A stretch of DNA of 64,000 nucleotides from Synechococcus sp. A15-62 (GTDB taxonomy: Bacteria > Cyanobacteriota > Cyanobacteriia > PCC-6307 > Cyanobiaceae): contig NZ_CP047950.1 in the NCBI RefSeq assembly GCF_014280075.1, forward strand, positions 992,001 to 1,056,000. The letters run 5' to 3'. The notes under the pieces were generated by a model. The model worked only from the letters and a program-made list of their open reading frames with translations, searched no databases and was not told the origin of the DNA. The position numbers and the translations under genes were made by a program. Below, piece after piece: positions 3,669 to 12,839 of this stretch. Position 1 is the stretch's first letter. Each line of letters opens with the position of its first letter.

Positions 3669-4313
3669 TCAGGCCGAATCGCGGCTTAACCACTGAAGAC
3701 AGCCTCGCAGCCACGCGTCTTGATCGTCTCCAGGGGGTGGGGGACCGTCGGAACCCTCGGCGATGGCACGAATGGCGCGACGAATTTCGAGATCGTCATA
3801 CCCAAGCATTGAGAGGGTCGCTTCGACGTCAGCCCCGCTCTCTGGCATTTGTTCCGAGCTGACTCCCTCCGCGAGTGAAGGGGCTGGGTCCATTCCGGCA
3901 AATACCGCAATGGAGGCCCGGAGCTCCACCGCCAGACGCTCAGCGGTACGTTTGCCAATGCCTTGGGCCTTGCAGAGTCGGCGTAGATCGCCGTTGCTGA
4001 TCGCTTCGACAAGTTCTTGAGGCTTGCATTCCTGCATCAGTGCCATCCCTGCTTGCGGGCCAACCCCGTTGACACTGATTAATTCTCTGAAAATGTCTCG
4101 TTCTTGCGTTGATTTGAAACCGAAAAATTGCCAATTATCCGGGCTGATGGTTTGGTGAATCCAAAGTTGAATTGTTTGATCGTTTTCTAGGGTTAACCAT
4201 TCACGTTGTGTTATTTGAACTTCGTAGCCAACACCATTGCAGCTCAGAGTGATCTGACTTCGATTTCCTCGCTGTTGTTTGTAAACGATTAGACCCTCGA
4301 GCCAGCCGATCAT
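3669..4313 (-). CDS. ruvA: Holliday junction DNA helicase subunit RuvA
   Basis: The 214-residue protein starts with [11 protein letters not shown], the usual RuvA N-terminus; an in-frame upstream start at 4370 adds 19 atypical residues and was rejected. The N-terminal OB domain is followed by two helix-hairpin-helix motifs ([19 protein letters not shown]) and a C-terminal domain that contacts RuvB. RuvA binds four-way junctions and loads RuvB for branch migration. Base composition shifts inside the gene: 3841-3960 is 62% GC by hand count, but 4081-4140 is only 35%. The 5' half therefore shares the AT-rich character of the neighbouring Mrp block. Confidence 0.96.
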
Positions 4314-4385
4314 GAATACATACCAGTCCCCATATCTTAGTTGAGACGCAGGCTGTACTGCAAGCTGCAAATTCGCATCATTTGC

Positions 4386-4413
4386 TTGACGAAAAAAAGT
4401 ATCTCGTTAGCAT
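4386..4413 (+). promoter_or_regulatory. Candidate promoter of the Mrp-type operon
   Basis: A -35-like TTGACG (4386-4391) and a -10-like TAGCAT (4408-4413) are spaced by 16 bases. They lie just upstream of the first antiporter gene (ATG 4434), in the gap diverging from ruvA. The leader would be short, about 14 bases. This is a pattern match only. Confidence 0.4.
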
Positions 4414-4433
4414 GAAAATGCTATTAACTTCTT

Positions 4434-4778
4434 ATGGTGCTGACGCCCGAGAAAATAAGGTTGTTCCCGATCGTCTTGCTGATGATCATTGGTTGCTTTG
4501 GTTTACTTAATTCAAAATCAATTTTACGTTCGCTTCTTTCGCTTGATGTGATTGATACGGCCACCATCACTATTTTTGTATTCTTTGCTGCATCCTCTGG
4601 TTATCAGACGCCCATTGTTTCCGCACAGCGATACAGCGCTTATTCAGATCCATATCCGCAAGCCATCATTTTGACTGCAATTGTTATCGGCTTTGCCACC
4701 CAAGCTTTGCTTTGTTCGGTAGCACTTCGCCTCGGTAGGAAATCGCCAATGCTTCGCTATAGAGATCTTGAAAAATAA
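4434..4778 (+). CDS. mrpC: Mrp-type cation/H+ antiporter subunit C (NuoK-like)
   Basis: The 114-residue membrane protein has about three helices. The first contains GCFGLLNSKSILRSLLSLDVIDTATITIF, matching the MrpC/MnhC and NuoK pattern (gly-leu-...-k.l.r.liGl.ii...v). MrpC is a small membrane subunit of the multisubunit Na+(or K+)/H+ antiporter. It is the first gene of a coupled plus-strand series; its stop overlaps the next start in TAATG. Base composition is AT-rich compared with the core genes around it. Confidence 0.85.
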   Translation: MVLTPEKIRLFPIVLLMIIGCFGLLNSKSILRSLLSLDVIDTATITIFVFFAASSGYQTPIVSAQRYSAYSDPYPQAIILTAIVIGFATQALLCSVALRLGRKSPMLRYRDLEK

Positions 4779-6301
4779 TGGATTTACAGATTGTTTTCCC
4801 CGCACTTATATTCTTGCCTGCATTTTTGGGTTTTATAGGTTGCGTTTTCCCGAGAATTGTTTTCCCTTTTGGCGTTTTGAGTCTGCTTGGCTTTGCTGCA
4901 TCAAGCTTTGCTGCACTTCAAGGTGATTTTGCCTATGCATTCACGCTGGTCGGTGAGGGAGGGATTCAATTTTCTGTTGATTCTTATTCATTTCCTCTGA
5001 TATTTGGTAGCTGTATCACTCTACTTATCGTATTTGGTCTATTCGCGAATCGGTTTACTCATTATTTTTACCAAATATGTTTGGTTCTGCTCACCGCGTT
5101 GTTTATTTCCTTCAGTGCCGTTGACCTGGTTAGCTTGTTTATTTCATTAGAGTTACTTGGGTTTTGCGCTTTTCTGCTGGTTGCAGACCGTAATGATAAA
5201 AAGTCTTTGTTTAATTCTTTCCAGTATTTGATTGGAGGTGGATTGGCAATGCTCATCTATTTGATTGGCGTTGTGCAAGCTTTCACATTTACAGGTAGTT
5301 TCTTGTTAAAGGATTTGGTGAATGCTCCTGATACAGCGCTTTGCCTAATCATTGCTGGTTTACTGACTAAATCTGGAGTCTTTCTTTGTGGTTTGTGGGT
5401 CCCCAACATTTATTCCCACACCAACTGTCAGTCTTCCGCAATACTTTCAGGTTGTGTGACCTGTGCTGGCATCGCTCCGATCGCACGGATGAGTCAGATT
5501 CTGACTCCAATTAGCGATTCCATGATTGTTATTGGTGTGATCAGTGCTGTTGTTGCAGCCATCTATGCGGTTTTTGAGCGAGAGAGTGGGAGAGCACTCG
5601 GCTGGAGCTCTGTCTCTCAATTGGGTATCGCCATCCTATCTCCTGCCTATGGCTGCATTTATGCAATGCAGCATGGTATCTGCAAGGCATTACTATTTTC
5701 TACTCTGCACGATGATAACGATCATTCAAATAGTCTCACTAACTTCGATTCAACGTATTTCAATAATCGAAATTCACCGCAAGAACTTTTAAGAGTAATC
5801 GTTTTTGTTGTTGCCAGCCTATCCATTATGGGATTTCCATTTCTAGCAGGTTTTATCACAAAAACCTGGATTAAATACGATATTCCATTCGAAGCAAGGC
5901 TTATTTATACAACAGCCTCATTGCTCACTTCAACTGTTTACGCACGTTTGATTTTCGACAGAGTAAGTATCTTTATCAAAAGACAAAATTTGAACCAAGC
6001 GACGTCTTTTGATTTGGCATCTGCTTTAAATGACTTATTTTCAAAGCCGAAAAATTATATACTTATGTTGTCTATAATCTTACTGGTGTGTTCGTCCCTA
6101 CTTTTCCCTGAACTGTTAACACTAGGTTCGATTCAGTCAGCAGTTGTTTCTGCAGTCTTGGGTGGCATTCTATTTGTCTCAGTGGTTGGTATACAAGCCG
6201 ATGACTTTGTCAAGCCGGTGACACGCACACTGGATTTGGTTGGTGCACCTTTTCTAGTCGCTGCTCTATTACTTGCAAATCTCCTTTATCTGAAAATCTA
6301 A
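4778..6301 (+). CDS. mrpD: Mrp-type antiporter subunit D (proton-translocating NuoL/M/N-like)
   Basis: The 507-residue protein is the only large antiporter-like subunit in this cluster, with about 14 hydrophobic segments. Residues typical of the family are visible: a membrane glutamate in FISLELLGFCAF (TM5), a lysine in GLLTKSGVF (TM7) and a lysine in LAGFITKTW (TM12). The usual HxWLP segment is altered to GLWVP. Bacterial Mrp complexes normally have two such subunits (A and D); here no second one is encoded. The stop and the next start share TAATG. Confidence 0.85.
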   Translation: MDLQIVFPALIFLPAFLGFIGCVFPRIVFPFGVLSLLGFAASSFAALQGDFAYAFTLVGEGGIQFSVDSYSFPLIFGSCITLLIVFGLFANRFTHYFYQICLVLLTALFISFSAVDLVSLFISLELLGFCAFLLVADRNDKKSLFNSFQYLIGGGLAMLIYLIGVVQAFTFTGSFLLKDLVNAPDTALCLIIAGLLTKSGVFLCGLWVPNIYSHTNCQSSAILSGCVTCAGIAPIARMSQILTPISDSMIVIGVISAVVAAIYAVFERESGRALGWSSVSQLGIAILSPAYGCIYAMQHGICKALLFSTLHDDNDHSNSLTNFDSTYFNNRNSPQELLRVIVFVVASLSIMGFPFLAGFITKTWIKYDIPFEARLIYTTASLLTSTVYARLIFDRVSIFIKRQNLNQATSFDLASALNDLFSKPKNYILMLSIILLVCSSLLFPELLTLGSIQSAVVSAVLGGILFVSVVGIQADDFVKPVTRTLDLVGAPFLVAALLLANLLYLKI

Positions 6302-6738
6302 TGACAAATTTCATAAGGCTATCCTTAATTCTTTCGTTCCGGCTTTCGTTGTGGTGTTTGGTGACTGCAAGTTTTCAATCAAATAATATTCTAATAGGTT
6401 TAGTTGTTTGTCTATTCATACCATTTGGCGATTTCAGAAAGCTGAAATTATCTCCATTGATGTCTGAAATCTTGCTTACCTTACGACTGCCATTCGATAT
6501 GATTAAAGAAAGCATTCAGTTGATCTTAATTTCAGATCCTGTCGATGATTTTTCTGAACAGAGTCTTTCCAGGCGGGCATTAAATGGATCTAGGTATTCA
6601 AAGTTTCTCGATCTTTTTCGAATGACATTTACCCCAATGACACTGGTGACTCGCCTTGAGAAAAGTGATACTTGGAGGGTGCACAATGTCATATCTGCTT
6701 CCAGCCTGGATTCTCCTCAGGAGGTATCAAAGCAATGA
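6301..6738 (+). CDS. mrpE: Mrp-type antiporter subunit E
   Basis: The 145-residue protein has two N-terminal hydrophobic segments followed by a soluble region. The pattern LLTLRLPFDMIKESIQLILISDP and the later MTFTPMTLVTRLE agree with the MrpE/MnhE family (a stretch before 'tpGT', here TPMT). MrpE is a membrane subunit of the complex. The gene ends ATGA, sharing bases with the start of the F gene. It is assigned partly by position between D and F. Confidence 0.78.
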   Translation: MTNFIRLSLILSFRLSLWCLVTASFQSNNILIGLVVCLFIPFGDFRKLKLSPLMSEILLTLRLPFDMIKESIQLILISDPVDDFSEQSLSRRALNGSRYSKFLDLFRMTFTPMTLVTRLEKSDTWRVHNVISASSLDSPQEVSKQ

Positions 6739-7013
6739 CTCAATTCAATCCTGTTCGTCCTGAAGTTCTTGAATATATCATTATATATCTTATGTTATTA
6801 ATTAGCTTAATCCCCGTATTTGCTATTTCTAGGTCTAAAGACACGCCAGAGCGTATTGCCTATGCCTCTAGCTTTGGGCATAAGCTTGCGATGATGATAC
6901 TTTTTTTTGGTGTTTTTAGAGGTGATTGGATGATTGGTTGTATTGGTGCTTTCATTCTTATTGTTGGGGATGCCGGCATGCTCATTCTTTCTTTGCTTGA
7001 GATGAGGATTTAA
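6735..7013 (+). CDS. mrpF: Mrp-type antiporter subunit F
   Basis: The 92-residue protein has three helices, and the central segment RIAYASSFGHKLAMMILFFG is followed by GCIGAFILIVGDAGMLILSLLEMRI. This is typical of MrpF, which has R..A......k......a.....f.D.all.all.f. The ATG at 6735 overlaps the E stop by four bases. A longer in-frame ORF starting at 6672 lies inside E and is not needed. Confidence 0.82.
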   Translation: MTQFNPVRPEVLEYIIIYLMLLISLIPVFAISRSKDTPERIAYASSFGHKLAMMILFFGVFRGDWMIGCIGAFILIVGDAGMLILSLLEMRI

Positions 7014-7016
7014 GTC

Positions 7017-7292
7017 ATGACACTTTCTATACTTTCATACGCATTTCTATTTGTTGGCTTGTTCTTTTGGACGTGGGGAACTTTTCCTATTCTGAATCGT
7101 GAGCATTCCATCTTCTATAAATTGCACACTCTTACTGTTTCAGACAGTGTTGGTTCACTTTTAATTCTTCTTAGTTTAATAATTCGTTTCCCACAATATT
7201 GGCCCTTGTTAATTGTAACTGCTCTCTCTTTGTCGTTATGGAATACGATTTCCAGTTATATTCTTGGAAATATTTCTGATCGAAAACTATGA
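7017..7292 (+). CDS. mrpG: Mrp-type antiporter subunit G
   Basis: The 91-residue protein has three hydrophobic segments. The segment FYKLHTLTVSDSVGSLLILLSLIIRF matches the family pattern 'yarLHa.t..dtlG..l.llgl.i', including the His and Asp-Ser. MrpG is a small structural subunit. It starts three bases after F and ends in an ATGA overlap with the next gene. Confidence 0.82.
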   Translation: MTLSILSYAFLFVGLFFWTWGTFPILNREHSIFYKLHTLTVSDSVGSLLILLSLIIRFPQYWPLLIVTALSLSLWNTISSYILGNISDRKL

Positions 7293-7834
7293 ATAGCGCC
7301 ATTACCAGCACCGCTTTAATTTTCCCATTTGAACTTCTTCTTCCGGTTCTGGGAATTCTTCTCATACGTTCCCAATCACCAATCAATAGCCTTATTTATC
7401 GCTCATTCCTGGGAAGTATATCCGCACTTATTTATGCTCTTGTTGGTGCTCCTGATGTTGCATTGACTGAAGTCATGGTTGGTACCCTTTTGTCCTCATT
7501 GCTTTATATTGTAACCATTCGTTCTTGTTATTCAATTGTTTTAATCCATGATAAGGGTTCATCTGTTCCTGATTCATTGAGATTAAAGTTAAAAACATTA
7601 TTTGATGAGTTACATCTAAATATTGTTTATCAACCTGAGGATTTATATGTTGACAATGTCTCCATTCTTGATTGCTTGTCTTCCTCTAAATATTCAGGCT
7701 CGCCCCATGCGATCATGCATGAGTCAATAATTTATTTTGAGGCAAAAAGCCTTCTATTGGATGTGCAAAATACAGTCAGTTTTGATGATCTGAAACTTGA
7801 CCTTACTTTCTCCACGACCTCATCATTAGCATGA
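7289..7834 (+). CDS. Reduced MrpA (DUF4040 domain) with a soluble tail
   Basis: Residues 1-80 are three membrane helices with GAPDVALTEVMVGTLLSSLLYIV, the signature of the MrpA C-terminal/MbhD (DUF4040) segment. The large NuoL-like part of a standard MrpA is absent. The remaining hundred residues are hydrophilic, contain YQPEDLYVDNVSILDCL, and resemble nothing I can name. The domain split follows the cyanobacterial and MBH-like arrangement, where MrpA is broken up. The start overlaps the G stop (ATGA), and the stop overlaps the next start (ATGA). Confidence 0.75.
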   Translation: MNSAITSTALIFPFELLLPVLGILLIRSQSPINSLIYRSFLGSISALIYALVGAPDVALTEVMVGTLLSSLLYIVTIRSCYSIVLIHDKGSSVPDSLRLKLKTLFDELHLNIVYQPEDLYVDNVSILDCLSSSKYSGSPHAIMHESIIYFEAKSLLLDVQNTVSFDDLKLDLTFSTTSSLA

Positions 7835-8553
7835 CTTTACCATCCAAAACAACAGACTCAAGGCTCTTTCCTCCTTCAAGCCAATCCTTGAAGTCACTTG
7901 TTTACTTGTTGGCCATCACATCAGTAATGTTCATGGCCTTGTTCTCTCGAGATGAAACTCTTGGTAGAGACACACAGGCAATTGTTGACTATCTTTCTGC
8001 TTATACACAAATACCTAATTCGGTTACATCAGTTATACTGGTAACACGTCTTTTCGATACTGTTGGTGAGGTTAGTGTATTTACAATCGCCGGCCTTGGC
8101 GTAAAAATCTTGCTGCATGAGGAGGATTCTGAAGAGAGATTTGTTGGGGTTAATGATGAGGCTGTTCGCCTTCTTCTTGATATCGCGGCATTATTGAGTT
8201 TTTTCCTGGCGATTGATCTTGCCCTCAAAGGGCATTTAACGCCCGGTGGTGGCTTTGCATCAGGAGTTGCAGGAGCCACCTCCATCACTCTACTGATGAT
8301 CACTGGAAGGCTTCAAAAAGTTGAAGACTTTTATTTCAAAGCAAATGCACCTGCAATTGAAAAATTTGCTGTTGCTTGCTTCATATTATTAGCGTTGGCT
8401 ACTTTGTCTTCTTTTTTATATCCTGCTTCAATATTTTCAAGTCTTTCACCGGTTTTTTATATCCCAGCTTTGAATATTATCGCCGCTTTGAAAGTTACCT
8501 TTGGTGCCTGGTCTATTTTACGTTTATTTGTCATCAAGAGAGGCGTGCTCTGA
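7831..8553 (+). CDS. mrpB: MbhE-like plus MrpB domain protein
   Basis: The 240-residue protein has two parts. Residues about 25-95 hold a helix, a loop and NSVTSVILVTRLFDTVGE, typical of the MbhE or extreme C-terminal part of MrpA. From about residue 108 onward comes an MnhB domain with GHLTPGGGFASGVAGA, the hallmark of MrpB. So the last piece of MrpA appears joined to MrpB. It ends the antiporter gene set; the channel gene begins six bases after its stop. Confidence 0.82.
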   Translation: MTLPSKTTDSRLFPPSSQSLKSLVYLLAITSVMFMALFSRDETLGRDTQAIVDYLSAYTQIPNSVTSVILVTRLFDTVGEVSVFTIAGLGVKILLHEEDSEERFVGVNDEAVRLLLDIAALLSFFLAIDLALKGHLTPGGGFASGVAGATSITLLMITGRLQKVEDFYFKANAPAIEKFAVACFILLALATLSSFLYPASIFSSLSPVFYIPALNIIAALKVTFGAWSILRLFVIKRGVL

Positions 8554-8559
8554 TTCCAT

Positions 8560-9315
8560 ATGAAATATCCAGGCAAGGATCCGTGGTATTTCGGGGATTA
8601 TCTGGGTGGCCTCCCTGGCAATAACTATTCTTTGCTACTGAATTGCATAATCATACTGCTTTTAGCGCAAATCGCCTTGAGTACCGAACCATCATTAGAC
8701 ACGAAGGTTGGTCATTTTTATCTTGACTTTGCATTGAATTTGATTGAGGTTTTCTTTATCACTGATTATGTTGGTAAATTAGCTAATACATGGTCTTTAT
8801 CCGATTATTCTATTTCGGGTCTTGTTGCCTCTTTCTTCCAGAGAGGCGCTCTCATTGATCTTGGCATCGTCTTGATCTTGGTAACCGAAGTTTTCCCTAA
8901 CGACTCATTTGTTGTGATTGGAATATATATTTTGAAATCTTTGCTGTCTATATATTACTCGGGATTTCAACGTGTCTTAAAGCGTGTTCAGTTTATCTTG
9001 ACTGATTCTCCAGGTTATACATTCTTCCCCTTGGTTTTGCTTGCCATTGTGACTTACGTCATGGCTTTCTGTATCTATCTGCTCGAGCGGGATTTTGATT
9101 CAGAGCATTTTGGCTCAATCACCCGAGCCCTATGGTTTTCCATTGTCACGTCTACCACGATCGGTTATGGCGATGTAACCCCTTCAACAACCCTTGGTAA
9201 GTTTGTCGCAATCGGTTTTGGTATTGTAGGAATCGTTTGTGTTGCTCTTTTAACTGCTAATATTCTTGAGTCTAATTCAAGATTCAACGAACTTGAAGAG
9301 CCTTCTGACGCTTAA
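8560..9315 (+). CDS. Six-helix K+-channel-like membrane protein
   Basis: The 251-residue protein has S1-S6 arrangement. S1 is near residues 23-41, S2 57-78, S3 96-112, a short S4-like segment (about 118-146, KSLL..GFQRVLKRV), S5 155-176, pore helix 188-200 and S6 215-235. The selectivity filter is T200-I-G-Y-G-D205, the K+-selective signature. The S4 positive charges do not show a clear every-third-residue pattern, so voltage gating is doubtful. There is no obvious cytosolic ligand-binding (RCK) domain. Position within the Mrp operon suggests a role in moving K+ or balancing charge. Confidence 0.85.
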   Translation: MKYPGKDPWYFGDYLGGLPGNNYSLLLNCIIILLLAQIALSTEPSLDTKVGHFYLDFALNLIEVFFITDYVGKLANTWSLSDYSISGLVASFFQRGALIDLGIVLILVTEVFPNDSFVVIGIYILKSLLSIYYSGFQRVLKRVQFILTDSPGYTFFPLVLLAIVTYVMAFCIYLLERDFDSEHFGSITRALWFSIVTSTTIGYGDVTPSTTLGKFVAIGFGIVGIVCVALLTANILESNSRFNELEEPSDA

Positions 9316-9321
9316 GTTTAA

Positions 9322-10056
9322 ATGACTGATAATTCAATCTTAACTTTTGAATCGCTCAACCATGTTCTCGATGTTGGTACGCCTTTCCCTCTTTTTGAAT
9401 CCTACTTAAATTCATACTCAACCTATATTGATTTTTTGAAGTTTGGTTGGGGAAGTGCACTTGTAGACCCCGATTTTTCGCGAAAGTCAAATCTTTGCAA
9501 ACAGCTCAATGTTCGTCCTATCCTTGGTGGAACTTTCTTTGAGTATATGATTCATCGTCATAGCTTTGACGAATTTTTACGCCGAATAGAATCCTTTGGT
9601 CTTGATTGCGTTGAGCTTAGTCGTGGAACTATTGACCTTGATGACGCAACCTATTGCTCATACATCAGAAAACTTTCCTCAAATTTCTTTGTGATGAGTG
9701 AGGTGGGTCGTAAATCATCTGACCCGGAATTTGAATTAACTGCTCAGCAATGGATTGATCATTGCGAAATTTCAGCCCAATCGGGTGCTTCTCTTATCAT
9801 TCTTGAATCCAGGGAATCTGGCCGTTCTGGCTATGTTTCAGATGGTGGTCAAGTGGATAGTGTTTTGCTTGAGTCAATTACTGCAAGGCTTCCAATTGGT
9901 TGCTTTCTGTTTGAAGCTCCCATCAAATCAGTACAGACCTATCTGATTAAGCGTTACGGACCGAACGTGAACATGGGCAATATCTCTCTTGATGACCTCG
10001 TGGCTGTCGAATCTCTCCGTAAAGGATTACGCTCAGACACGTTATTGGCTGTGTAA
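9322..10056 (+). CDS. Phosphosulfolactate synthase (ComA/PslS family)
   Basis: The 244-residue TIM-barrel protein keeps the family's conserved blocks in order. They are YIDFLKFGWGS (35-45), LGGTFFEYM (68-76), VELSRGTIDL (97-106), VMSEVGRK (124-131), LESRESGRSG (161-170), FEAPIKSVQ (197-205), VNMGNI (216-221) and LRKGLRSDT (232-240). Known members add sulfite to phosphoenolpyruvate to give 2-phospho-3-sulfolactate, for coenzyme M in methanogens or sulfolactate in Bacillus spores. No ComB phosphatase or ComC dehydrogenase gene lies nearby. The gene starts six bases after the channel stop, so it is probably in the same operon. The family call is firm; the actual product here is unknown. Confidence 0.88.
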   Translation: MTDNSILTFESLNHVLDVGTPFPLFESYLNSYSTYIDFLKFGWGSALVDPDFSRKSNLCKQLNVRPILGGTFFEYMIHRHSFDEFLRRIESFGLDCVELSRGTIDLDDATYCSYIRKLSSNFFVMSEVGRKSSDPEFELTAQQWIDHCEISAQSGASLIILESRESGRSGYVSDGGQVDSVLLESITARLPIGCFLFEAPIKSVQTYLIKRYGPNVNMGNISLDDLVAVESLRKGLRSDTLLAV

Positions 10057-10119
10057 CGTCTACTTGTTTTCCATTTGCTGATTCGCCCTTGTTTTAATGC
10101 TAGCTTAAACGAATGTGTC

Positions 10120-10125
10120 TATAAT
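10120..10125 (+). promoter_or_regulatory. Consensus -10 box upstream of the binding-protein gene
   Basis: TATAAT occurs exactly once in the 70-base gap after the phosphosulfolactate synthase gene. No good -35 is visible at 17 bases. A start site about seven bases downstream would exclude the TTG at 10128 as the start codon and favour GTG at 10158. Confidence 0.45.
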
Positions 10126-10157
10126 ATTTGCATGGGTTCTTTGGCTTTTTTTGTTGC

Positions 10158-11009
10158 GTGTTTAATTCTTTTCTTAGATTAATTGTTGCATTCGCATGCG
10201 CATCTTTGCTTCTACTTTCTCCTCTCGAGGCCAACGCAGCCAATGACTTTGTGGATGCTATTCAAGCGAGAGGCTACCTCAAAGTAGGCTTGCCCCCTTA
10301 CAACACTCCTCCTGCTTACTTCCTTGAAGAGAACTCAGATGAGCTCCAAGGGTACGATGTTGATTTTGCAAGAACTCTAGCGAGCAAACTCGGCGTAGAA
10401 ATCCAATTTGATCGCTCGTCCAAGAGTTTCAATAATCTGGTTGAACGTGTGGGTAATGGTGATTTTGATATCGCAATTGGCAAACTTGGTCTTACATACA
10501 ATCGGCTTTTTGATGCTTTCCCGATTCAATATCTGAGTTTTCGCCATGCTTTCCTTGCTAATCGAGAATTTGTTGCTTCACTGGGTGTCGATCCAGATGA
10601 CCCTAAGTTTGGCGAGATACTGAAGAATTCAACCATAAGGATTGGTTCGATCAAAAACTCAACCTGGGAGACTGAGGCAAAAGCTAATTTTCCAAATGCT
10701 ACGTTTGTAGGGTTTAAGAATTGGCCAGCGGCCAAAAAAGCATTGTTTGAAAAAGACTCTGTGATTGATGCAATCTACCGTGATACCACTGAGATTAAGC
10801 CAATTGTTTATTCTCAACCTGATTTGTCGCTTGAGTATGTACCGATCCTCTTCGATGAGTTGATTGATCGAAAGTCCATCTACTTGTCCCAAGATGGAAG
10901 GCTTGGTCTTAAAGACTTTATCGACATGGCATTGCGCCGAGAATGGGGAGGAATCAAGACTGATATCAACATTCTGGACGAGTTCCAATCCTTCTATCTT
11001 CCCTCTTGA
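10158..11009 (+). CDS. Periplasmic solute-binding protein, family 3
   Basis: The protein is 283 residues from the GTG at 10158; a TTG at 10128 would add ten residues. It has a hydrophobic signal peptide ending near ANA-AND. The mature part shows the family-3 pattern: LKVGLPPYNTPPAYF, then LQGYDVDFARTLASKLGV, then GDFDIAIGKLG. These proteins normally deliver amino acids or organic anions to an ABC permease. No ABC permease or ATPase is nearby; instead an SDF symporter follows two bases after the stop. The ligand cannot be inferred. Confidence 0.85.
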   Translation: MFNSFLRLIVAFACASLLLLSPLEANAANDFVDAIQARGYLKVGLPPYNTPPAYFLEENSDELQGYDVDFARTLASKLGVEIQFDRSSKSFNNLVERVGNGDFDIAIGKLGLTYNRLFDAFPIQYLSFRHAFLANREFVASLGVDPDDPKFGEILKNSTIRIGSIKNSTWETEAKANFPNATFVGFKNWPAAKKALFEKDSVIDAIYRDTTEIKPIVYSQPDLSLEYVPILFDELIDRKSIYLSQDGRLGLKDFIDMALRREWGGIKTDINILDEFQSFYLPS

Positions 11010-11011
11010 TC

Positions 11012-12352
11012 ATGCGTATCAACTCCTCACTTGTTCAATCTCTATTTTCCTCCGTCTTCACCTTCCTGCCAAGGTTGCGAAAACCGCGCAACTTTTTCCT
11101 CTACATCTTGCCTTTTTCAATTGTTTTAGGCAGATTTATTCCACCTTCCTACTCATCCACGTTAAACGAAATCGGTGTTTCGTTGGTTCAGCTTATTGCC
11201 TTTCCAGCGATTCCACTGGTTTTATCCGCTGTGATGATTTCCATTGCCAATATCTTTGGCTCTGAAACCCGAAGCAACAGCGATCGTATTCGATTCGGTA
11301 CAAGGTTTGTTGTTTCATTGTTGGTGGCAATCTTATTTGCATCATCCCTAGCTTTGTTGCTTTCGCTTTATCAAAGCCCAGGTATTCTTTCCCCGAGCGC
11401 AAAGTTGTCGATTGGACGGTTCATGCTCGATGTTACCGACATTCGCATTGGTGCTGTTTCTACTGTCGCCCAAGTGAATGATATTTGGTTTTCGAGGCTC
11501 ATACCTAGCAACATTTTTGCTGATGCCTCTGATGGCCAAACATTGAAAGTCATCACTGGATCTGTCATTGCTGGTTTGGCAATTGCACGTCTCAGATCAG
11601 ATAGCACGCAACCCCTTCTTACTTTGCTTCGAAGCGTTAATACAACTTCAGTTCAAGTTTTAAGCATAGTACTGAATCTCGCTCCTCTGGTTCTTATATG
11701 CCTTATTTCTGCTGCGATTTCCACGATCAATGCTGAAATCGTTGTCGCCCTTCTTAATTTCACGATTTGCGTTTTCCTTACTGCAATCGCATCTCTGGGC
11801 ATCTCTAGACTCGTCTTCCGTCGTTTTACGTCTACGTCAGAACGCTCAGGCATTTCCGTGAATCCAGTGGATTCTGTTTTTCTGCTGAGCTTGTCCACAG
11901 GAAGCAGCATGACCGCTTACCCCTTGCTTTTTGACACTCTCACTGGCATGGGTCGTGATGAATCTGAAGTTGAGGCTTCGGCTTCACTGAGTTTGCTAAT
12001 TGCCAGGCTTGGGAATGTTTCTTATAACGTGATCGCCATTTTATTCGCTCTAAACCTTTATGACGTGAGCATCACTCCCGTAAGGGTTGTTGAAGTTATT
12101 GCCCTGGGTGCCATCACCGGGATTTCAGCAGCTGGGCTCACAGGGGTAGCGACTGTCCCCACCATCACTGTGGCGCTTCTTTATTTTCAAGTTCCTGCAC
12201 CTCCGATTCTCGTTCTTCTTTTAGCGATTGATCCAATTTTGACCCTCCCTCGAGCTGCAACCACCGGAGTTTTAGCGATGGCCATTGCCGTGGTTTCTTC
12301 TTACAAATCCCCTTCCCAGAAGGATTTGAAAGCTGCTGCATCAGCCGTCTGA
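11012..12352 (+). CDS. SDF-family (dicarboxylate/amino acid:cation symporter) transporter, divergent
   Basis: The 446-residue membrane protein has about eight helices. The order is typical of the DAACS family: IPPSYSSTLNEIG near the start, RLIPSNIFADASDGQTL (family: lPsN.f.a...g..l), an HP1-like serine-rich loop STGSSMTAYP, and an HP2-like AAGLTGVATVPT. The usual SSSAATLP motif, the NMDGT motif and the substrate-binding D-x3-T-x2-N of the last helix are all changed (IDPILTLPRAATTG). Substrate is therefore likely not glutamate or aspartate. Start: ATG two bases after the binding-protein stop; TTG at 11006 is an alternative. Confidence 0.82.
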   Translation: MRINSSLVQSLFSSVFTFLPRLRKPRNFFLYILPFSIVLGRFIPPSYSSTLNEIGVSLVQLIAFPAIPLVLSAVMISIANIFGSETRSNSDRIRFGTRFVVSLLVAILFASSLALLLSLYQSPGILSPSAKLSIGRFMLDVTDIRIGAVSTVAQVNDIWFSRLIPSNIFADASDGQTLKVITGSVIAGLAIARLRSDSTQPLLTLLRSVNTTSVQVLSIVLNLAPLVLICLISAAISTINAEIVVALLNFTICVFLTAIASLGISRLVFRRFTSTSERSGISVNPVDSVFLLSLSTGSSMTAYPLLFDTLTGMGRDESEVEASASLSLLIARLGNVSYNVIAILFALNLYDVSITPVRVVEVIALGAITGISAAGLTGVATVPTITVALLYFQVPAPPILVLLLAIDPILTLPRAATTGVLAMAIAVVSSYKSPSQKDLKAAASAV

Positions 12353-12365
12353 CTTTTCTCAAAGA

Positions 12366-12839
12366 ATGTTTCTCTCTCGATATCGAAACCTGTTGCATTC
12401 GCTTTCTGTGCGCATCCGGACTGCTGCACTAAATATTCTCTGCGTTCTCCTTCTTGGCTTCGCATCAACGTCGTGCTCCTTTAATTATGAACCGCCGAGA
12501 AGTCTTGTTATAGAGGCTCTGCAGGCGCAAATTGCTGTTACCCAATCATCGATCTCCGAGAGCCTTGGTCTGAATCCATCGATTAAGGTCCCCGAGGTTA
12601 GCCGTGTGCGTGTCGATCATCAAGAAACACTCAAAGTGGATGGTCAAAGCTTCATTCATCTCGAAGGAAGCTTTGATTGGCAACTCCCCCAAGATCCTGT
12701 GCGGGTTGATAGCTCTTTTGAGCTTTTCCTCCTAAAGGGGCAGCGCGGTGAGGGTTGGACCCTTGCACGGCCTGTTGCTGGCGAGGCGGGTGATCTTCAG
12801 CGTTGGCTCCTGTACCCCCTTGGGTTACCTCAAGCTTGA
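12366..12839 (+). CDS. Putative lipoprotein of unknown function
   Basis: The 157-residue protein has a basic N-terminus, a hydrophobic helix (about residues 22-34) and ASTSC, a weak lipobox. The rest is soluble and unrecognised. It starts 13 bases after the symporter stop. Base composition climbs along the gene, from 43% GC at 12361-12420 to 62% at 12721-12780 by hand count, so the edge of the AT-rich block falls inside it. The last 15 bases overlap the end of the convergent exporter gene. Confidence 0.65.
   Translation: MFLSRYRNLLHSLSVRIRTAALNILCVLLLGFASTSCSFNYEPPRSLVIEALQAQIAVTQSSISESLGLNPSIKVPEVSRVRVDHQETLKVDGQSFIHLEGSFDWQLPQDPVRVDSSFELFLLKGQRGEGWTLARPVAGEAGDLQRWLLYPLGLPQA

Follow-up and report, generated by a model that had tools for sequence, protein, structure and literature searches.

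An accessory gene island of marine picocyanobacteria sets a binding protein and an SDF-fold carrier beside a K+ channel and an Mrp module with one antiporter subunit

Results and Discussion

Gene content of the locus

The window analysed here is a stretch of 64,000 nucleotides from Synechococcus sp. A15-62 (contig NZ_CP047950.1, positions 992,001 to 1,056,000). At 4434-12352 on its plus strand lies a gene island of eleven open reading frames (ORFs) in one run, encoding an Mrp-type antiporter module, a K+ channel, a ComA-like protein, a family-3 substrate-binding protein (SBP) and an SDF-fold carrier. Within the island, neighbouring genes overlap by 1-4 bases or are separated by 3-6 bases, and the only larger intergenic gap, 71-101 bases long depending on the start chosen, lies before the SBP gene. 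The eleven near-contiguous plus-strand genes reported by the first-pass annotation are thus confirmed with this one larger gap, and so are, by their Pfam families, its channel with TIGYGD, its ComA, its family-3 binding protein and its SDF gene. Domain families were assigned with the Pfam and NCBIfam cut-offs.

4434..4778, plus: mrpC-like (NuoK-type) subunit; Oxidored_q2 E=6.9e-18, NCBIfam PRK07375.1-5 above cut-off
4778..6301, plus: mrpD-like subunit, the cluster's sole antiporter-type subunit; Proton_antipo_M E=8.8e-27
6301..6738, plus: mrpE-like; MNHE E=0.0021, under the family cut-off
6735..7013, plus: candidate mrpF, its ATG overlapping the mrpE stop by 4 bases; named by position and conservation only
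7017..7292, plus: mrpG-like; PhaG_MnhG_YufB E=7.2e-15
7289..7834, plus: MbhD/DUF4040 protein (part of an MrpA tail); MbhD E=4.6e-15 over residues 16-79 of 181
7831..8553, plus: MbhE-like and MrpB fusion; MnhB E=5.9e-14, MbhE 9e-4 (below cut-off), NCBIfam PRK12567.1-2 above cut-off
8560..9315, plus: K+ channel with TTIGYGD filter; Ion_trans_2 E=4e-17, Ion_trans 4.5e-11
9322..10056, plus: ComA (phosphosulfolactate synthase-like), an optional member; ComA E=1.6e-64
10128..11009 (as longest ORF; translation may really begin near 10158), plus: family-3 SBP with a signal-like N-terminus; SBP_bac_3 E=8.1e-11
11006..12352, plus: SDF-fold carrier lacking the canonical residues for Na+ or H+ coupling; SDF E=6.8e-36

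We regard the SBP-SDF pair as the most interesting part of the locus, and it could represent an unrecognised kind of uptake system.

The SBP-SDF pair

Both members of the pair are clear family members, the SDF protein scoring 124.6 bits against a PF00375 cut-off of 27.9 and the SBP 42.3 bits against a PF00497 cut-off of 26.4. Coupling positions of the carrier were scored by the signatures found in an excerpt of PMC12668577 (Reddy et al. 2025), namely [S/T]92-93, N310, [M/S]311, [D/E]312 and [D/E]405 for Na+ and a hydrophobic residue at 92, L311 and N405 for H+. A motif table covered the window SDF and 50 further distinct SDF rows. By these signatures the window SDF retains one of the five Na+ positions and none of the three H+ positions; every SBP-linked row retains 0-1 of five and 0-2 of three (the best being the first SDF, SDF1, of Gemmobacter), and canonical SDFs without an SBP retain 2-5 of the five Na+ positions. 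N310, M311, D312 and D405 are all lost, and position 311 is arginine in every SBP-linked SDF except for one glutamine (L051). Since the N-M-D motif and D405 are lost and an arginine stands at 311, the SDF is probably Na+-independent, and the earlier expectation that SDF transporters are cation-driven finds no support here. In the Na+-independent carnitine exchanger CaiT an arginine replaces a sodium ion, which offers a lead for how the carrier might work.

The window SDF keeps the substrate-site residues D390 and R397. Position 394, whose aspartate we take to contact the amino group in GltPh, is threonine in the Mrp-linked SDFs (serine in L052), methionine in the distant cyanobacterial pair of G047, and aspartate in two Mrp-less Prochlorococcus SDFs as well as in the racemase-linked first SDFs described below, except for G560 (asparagine). 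A substrate is given by none of the Pfam and PDB matches of the SDF. At or near the top for both its structural model (predicted local distance difference test, pLDDT, 78.6) and its profile stand 9bgz, 9bgy and 9bh0, chains of an ancestral uncoupled aspartate transporter; those of GltPh and SLC1 follow closely, and the 50 Foldseek matches listed for the model are of GltPh/GltTk/SLC1 type or a reconstructed ancestor.

In the SBP, R126, R218, D219 and E222 are invariant in all 20 aligned sequences, and from the alignment we take R126 and D219 to be amino-acid contacts. Its model (pLDDT 87.9), the only one compared by VIA-align, matches amino-acid-binding and glutamate-receptor cores, including GluR0 (1ii5), with Z of about 18-19. 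A reading of the pair as a TRAP-like (tripartite ATP-independent periplasmic) transporter was rejected, as no DctQ/DctM or TctA/TctB family was found among the eleven proteins, to which that search was confined.

The pair is wider than the island. Profile searches found it at 23-35% identity, with no Mrp beside it, both in further cyanobacteria and on plasmids of Proteobacteria. In G047 it adjoins a Na_H_Exchanger gene and in G560, G551 and G630 an Asp/Glu racemase gene, while plasmids of Cupriavidus sp. P-10, Paraburkholderia sp. PGU19 and P. phymatum share the order SBP-SDF-racemase-SDF, which in Gemmobacter aquarius is followed by a convergent channel-like ion transporter gene with SIGYGD. 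An Asp/Glu racemase thus stands at seven of the eight SBP-SDF loci outside the island, two of the plasmid racemases being confirmed by Pfam and the others by a profile of our own. The genome sample comprised 386 genomes, 194 with a match, with at most four candidates scored per genome and at least 30 SDF loci; the plasmid searches returned 110 and 313 records in two cases and 2 in another, of which nine were opened by choice. Beside canonical SDFs the SBP profile found no SBP (0/27), with flanks of about 0.2-1.5 kb for 20 of them, so that a more distant SBP could be missed.

In a tree of 63 SDF rows, from which rows below 380 residues and identical rows had been removed, the 27 canonical rows form one clade (100/100), and the label "SBP-linked", which here includes second SDFs of the same run that are not directly beside the SBP, changes twice, compared with a mean of 21 after shuffling. 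With long branches and a root that is not known, the two changes would most simply be read as one gain and one loss. SDF genes that lack the N-M-D motif also occur without an SBP beside a kinase gene, at L122:8394-11458 and L123:7695-10742 (an FHA-PAS-Ser/Thr kinase by Pfam in L123, a homologue of it in L122); L123 carries an Mrp set about 5 kb away from its SDF.

As the excerpt of PMC12668577 already reports that transporters of the uncoupled clade often lie beside genes for amino-acid enzymes, the enzyme link is not new. The term "binding protein" is absent from the text of that paper, and no paper on such an SBP-SDF pair was found in the open-licence literature.

Alternatively, the pair might be no carrier but a sensor or an anion conductance opened by ligand, which jointly with the K+ channel and Mrp would trim membrane potential and pH. 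Anion conduction is known from SLC1 proteins, and the lost coupling residues, an SBP fold near glutamate-receptor cores such as GluR0 (1ii5), the K+ channel next door and the SIGYGD ion transporter beside the Gemmobacter set would all suit such a role. The retained D390 and R397 argue for transport instead, as do the racemase genes at seven other loci, which would fit an amino acid that is metabolised after transport, and we consider a conductance or sensor improbable.

The Mrp module and the K+ channel

Among the small Mrp subunits B, C and G pass their Pfam cut-offs, E stays below it and F has no match, so that the names mrpE and mrpF rest on position and conservation. The mrpF candidate gave no significant Pfam or PDB match, nor did its homologues in a second Mrp type described below, and Pfam gave no family match for the C-terminal half of the MbhD/DUF4040 protein. 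The cluster holds one PF00361 gene and no MrpA-type subunit; six further PF00361 genes, with types not assigned, lie elsewhere in the genome. The "seven-part Mrp-like antiporter" of the first-pass annotation stands as a gene count, whereas an Mrp antiporter (CPA3) has two antiporter-type subunits, MrpA and MrpD. In the MrpD alignment (14 of the 20 Mrp-linked copies) E125, K198, K303 and K362 are invariant throughout, as we would expect of a proton-moving subunit. Its top solved match is the NDH-1 subunit 6hum_F, and the closest chain of Mrp or membrane-bound hydrogenase (MBH) type is 6cfw_H. No hydrogenase or redox module was found among the eleven island proteins and those of ruvA, orf157 and eamA, the only proteins searched for one.

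A second Mrp type with normal guanine-plus-cytosine (GC) content was observed at L057:2610-6628 and L058:5374-9420, in two same-genus genomes without the island, with one MrpD-like gene matched; this set shows 40% identity, and the 12 kb fetched gave no SBP, SDF or channel matches. Excerpts of PMC7771541 and PMC7393227 place an mrp set, which may be of either type, in strain WH7803, mostly up at night according to the latter, and we do not use it as support.

The filter of the channel reads TTIGYGD in the window, which conforms to T-x-G-Y-G-D, and TT[IV]GYGD recurs in 13 of 13 aligned channels, drawn from 19 Mrp-linked copies; the best PDB chains belong to Kv channel subfamily D member 2. Both channels found at loci without Mrp (L115:3306-4043 and L116:8147-8887) have lost GYGD and read MISFAFDG instead. 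That the filter has disappeared where Mrp is missing links the channel to Mrp and suggests, from a single lineage, that K+ conduction matters only together with it.

ComA and the sulfonate hypothesis

The first-pass annotation proposed one system for salt or pH homeostasis by which a sulfonated or carboxylated solute may be made or moved. In its favour, the island ComA reaches 218 bits against a PF02679 cut-off of 25.2 and shares the main motifs of the solved chains 1qwg and 1u83 in an alignment, and the window genome also carries a gene of the phosphosulfolactate phosphatase family PF04029 (G000:C1:967830-968519, outside the window). Under the archaeal equivalog model arch_ComA of NCBIfam, the protein scores 191.8 bits against a cut-off of 280. 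ComA is rare, being present in 12 of 300 family genomes, and at the island it stands in only 14 of 23 loci and is absent from nine, where absence refers to the locus, not every such genome having been searched whole. PF04029 was found in 16 of 18 genomes, among them each of the six whose island lacks ComA; the two misses are incomplete genomes that carry ComA. With ComA optional and PF04029 not tied to the island, a sulfonate osmolyte route was rejected. The open-licence literature yielded no paper that connects these organisms with the making of sulfolactate, and an excerpt of PMC7771541 argues from an euryhaline strain without mrp that mrp might not relate to salinity adaptation. We accordingly regard the sulfonated-solute system as very improbable.

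Four loci carry a VOC/glyoxalase gene between ComA and the SBP. An overlapping ComA-VOC pair also occurs without Mrp in an unrelated place of G155 (L059:6915-8068), near an AMP-binding/carrier-protein gene.

Distribution and cohesion of the island

Among 34 same-genus genomes the SDF gene is present in 14 (six of 19 when only genomes of at least 90% completeness are counted), and MrpB in 16, comprising the same 14 and the two with the different Mrp set. Across 400 family genomes an SDF match was obtained in 20. In 18 of these the matched part has at least 53% identity; G047 (33%) and G127 (32%, a fragment whose contig ends inside the SDF gene) make up the rest and were left out of the locus set. 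Named GTDB contigs, mostly from Synechococcus and Prochlorococcus single-cell genomes, gave 17 loci, 12 from the same genomes and five additional, so that 23 distinct loci were compared, duplicates of one genome being counted once. No open-licence paper that names six of the single-cell genomes was found. One of them, L107, is a contig labelled as a Rubripirellula metagenome-assembled genome with a picocyanobacterial comA-SBP-SDF-orf157 end, probably contamination; it starts inside comA and was left out of the Mrp and channel counts.

Mrp adjoins the SBP-SDF pair in 20 of the 22 assessable loci, and the channel is present in 21 of 22. The SBP directly precedes the SDF gene in 22/22 (G279 was left out, its contig starting inside the SDF gene), with the 4-base overlap of the window in 9 of 16 measured loci, the window included. 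One SBP, that of AG-432-D11, is split in two reading frames (L115:4261-5122), as a pseudogene or by sequencing error. The two Mrp-less loci, from Prochlorococcus AG-432-D11 and AG-439-O21, hold channel, SBP and SDF genes, and MrpD matches in these genomes reach only the level of an NDH-1 subunit (28% identity); AG-432-D11 is 53% complete and no completeness is given for AG-439-O21, so Mrp absence there is not proof. Gene order is conserved at 53-94% amino-acid identity to the window, and clustering by chance is therefore discounted.

The island is an accessory element found in marine picocyanobacteria, and the first-pass annotation holds up in seeing a co-inherited ion-transport gene set whose synteny recurs across genomes; as a unit, this set was not found described in the open-licence literature. 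Its view of one inseparable system does not hold, given the channel-SBP-SDF loci without Mrp, a locus without the channel and the SBP-SDF pair alone elsewhere. Nor, however, do the data reach the refuting condition that the first-pass annotation set itself, genes separable in most genomes, since Mrp remains linked in 20 of 22 assessable loci.

These exceptions fit a reading in which independent accessory functions use the same insertion site and travel together as cargo but do not act jointly, so that an Mrp and a channel of ordinary kind would stand beside ComA and a separate uptake pair of SBP and SDF. The ComA-less loci, the ComA-VOC pair elsewhere in G155, the SBP-SDF pairs of other cyanobacteria and plasmids, and the longer gap before the SBP, 25-328 bases for the longest ORFs in 11/11 loci without a VOC gene, point the same way. 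Against it stand the gene order, which persists in 20 of 22 loci at identities as low as about 53%, both in Synechococcus of high GC and in Prochlorococcus of low GC and despite several different points of insertion, the loss of the channel filter where Mrp is lost, and the VOC gene, which abuts or overlaps the SBP in all four loci that have it and shifts a gap of 18-86 bases to before comA. Overall, independent cargo appears unlikely to us.

In the 11 VOC-less loci, the space ahead of the SBP gene would leave room for a second promoter. Two transcription units are weakly suggested and were set aside, the gap being filled by VOC in 4 of 15 loci and dependent on the start chosen. A promoter scan did no better than shuffled sequence (17 found, shuffled mean 17.2), and terminator-like sites numbered 11 against 8.3 in shuffles.

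Insertion site and history

The island interrupts a native ruvA-orf157-eamA-dnaG order, and its immediate neighbours lie outside the system:

3669..4370, minus: ruvA, left flank of the island; RuvA domains
12366..12839, plus: orf157, right flank of the island

GC content is 34-46% per island gene in a genome of about 60%, with 53% in ruvA, an intermediate 51% in orf157, and 63-64% in eamA and dnaG. Sixteen dnaG neighbourhoods were compared: fifteen, all from genomes without the island SDF, have ruvA-orf157-eamA-dnaG closed up with no island gene matched, and the sixteenth belongs to G305, where the island is located elsewhere. These fifteen are the examinable part of 20 same-genus genomes without SDF, four of the others giving no dnaG match and one a fragment. 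Other positions of the island are beyond orf157 (G302) and on the far side of ruvA (G267, G186).

The nine closest empty-site genomes share 91-97% identity with the window in eamA, but only 73-76% in ruvA and 47-50% in orf157, and a purely vertical history was rejected on this ground. The island-carrying G216 reaches 94% and 89% in the latter two. That G216 shares the flank alleles and the empty-site relatives do not suggests that island and flanking alleles move together, which exchange by homologous recombination would produce. For 66 pairs drawn from 12 genomes, which are not independent, island and flank identities co-vary (Pearson 0.86, Spearman 0.81), and a recent single transfer was thereby dismissed as the whole story. 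In 11 loci besides the window the island has 39-43% GC and 32-42% GC at third codon positions (GC3) over eight genes, compared with 51-61% and 45-71% in the flanks; the contrast is smallest in L051. The figures for the 12 genomes exclude comA, and those for GC also mrpE and mrpF. The low GC of the island thus seems to have lasted through much divergence.

Proposed function

Taken together, these sequence data lead us to propose a mobile low-GC island that joins a single-antiporter Mrp and a K+ channel to an SDF carrier that depends on an SBP, transports an acidic amino acid or a dicarboxylate and is not driven by Na+, a proposal to which we give an even chance. The Mrp/MBH-type cation/proton antiporter module with its one antiporter subunit would, together with the channel, move protons, Na+ and K+ across the membrane. 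In the periplasm the SBP would capture its ligand through R126 and D219 and pass it on to the SDF elevator, presumably in direct contact and in the direction of uptake; such a hand-over is suggested by adjacency, co-occurrence and the tree. The SDF would probably work without Na+ co-transport, its charge being balanced by ion movement through Mrp and the channel, and ComA would be an optional extra.

The broader claim is that the pair founds a fourth SBP-dependent class besides ATP-binding cassette (ABC), TRAP and tripartite tricarboxylate (TTT) transporters, consisting of an SDF (SLC1-fold) elevator without Na+/H+ coupling, with arginine in place of M311, and a family-3 SBP. This class would have arisen once, be common to cyanobacteria and Proteobacteria, normally accompany an Asp/Glu racemase and, in marine picocyanobacteria, have acquired Mrp and a K+ channel as partners. 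We offer it tentatively, as somewhat short of an even chance.

Several observations weigh against these proposals. An uncoupled carrier cannot concentrate an anion against a membrane that is negative inside, which would call for an unseen coupling or for immediate consumption of the substrate. The island contains no racemase gene. Mrp and the channel are each separable from SBP-SDF, and the correlation of filter and Mrp is one lineage, represented by two single-cell genomes. The parts point to slightly different substrates, position 394 being threonine or serine while the SBP pocket is of amino-acid type, and R311 also occurs in four canonical SDFs that keep D312 (L091, L126, L127, L154). On the tree, the SDFs of G484 and G618, which lack N-M-D and an SBP and have a kinase-type neighbour, are nested inside the linked set, several branches are very long, and a single family (f31) supplies 18 of the 27 canonical rows. 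The distant cyanobacterial pairs were already part of the alignments behind the SBP and SDF profiles, and of the nine plasmid records, chosen by us, four have an SBP and five do not.

If the proposals are correct, an SDF carrier working with an SBP would add one more family to the three families of binding-protein-dependent transporters named in an excerpt of PMC5812351. It would furthermore supply extant representatives of SLC1-fold transporters that lack Na+ coupling, which the 2025 work, in the excerpt of PMC12668577, approached via reconstructed ancestors, leaving functional studies of living descendants open. An island gained and lost by ocean picocyanobacteria at low GC would thereby obtain a function.

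Comparison with known systems

Mrp (CPA3) and the Mrp module of MBH (PDB 6cfw) share with the island the C, D, G, MbhD and MbhE/B subunits and the conserved E and K residues, whereas the island has a single PF00361 subunit, no MrpA body and no hydrogenase module in the cluster. Phosphosulfolactate synthase ComA (1qwg, 1u83) shares family and main motifs with the island protein, which differs in falling below the archaeal equivalog cut-off, in being optional and in having a VOC gene next to it in four loci. GluR0 (PDB 1ii5), which we take to be the glutamate-gated K+ channel of Synechocystis, likewise combines a K+ channel with a family-3-like amino-acid-binding domain, but the island encodes these in separate genes and adds an SDF carrier and Mrp.

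With the SDF/DAACS family (GltPh) and the ancestral Anc-Int (9bgz), the island carrier has in common PF00375, the fold match and the retained R397 and D390; it differs by the missing N310, M311, D312 and D405, by the arginine at 311 and by adjoining a family-3 SBP. TRAP and TTT systems resemble the proposed one in combining an SBP with a secondary-type carrier for a carboxylate, and the outline of working would be alike, whereas the island has an SDF membrane protein in place of DctQM or TctAB, a family-3 SBP and no recognisable Na+ site.

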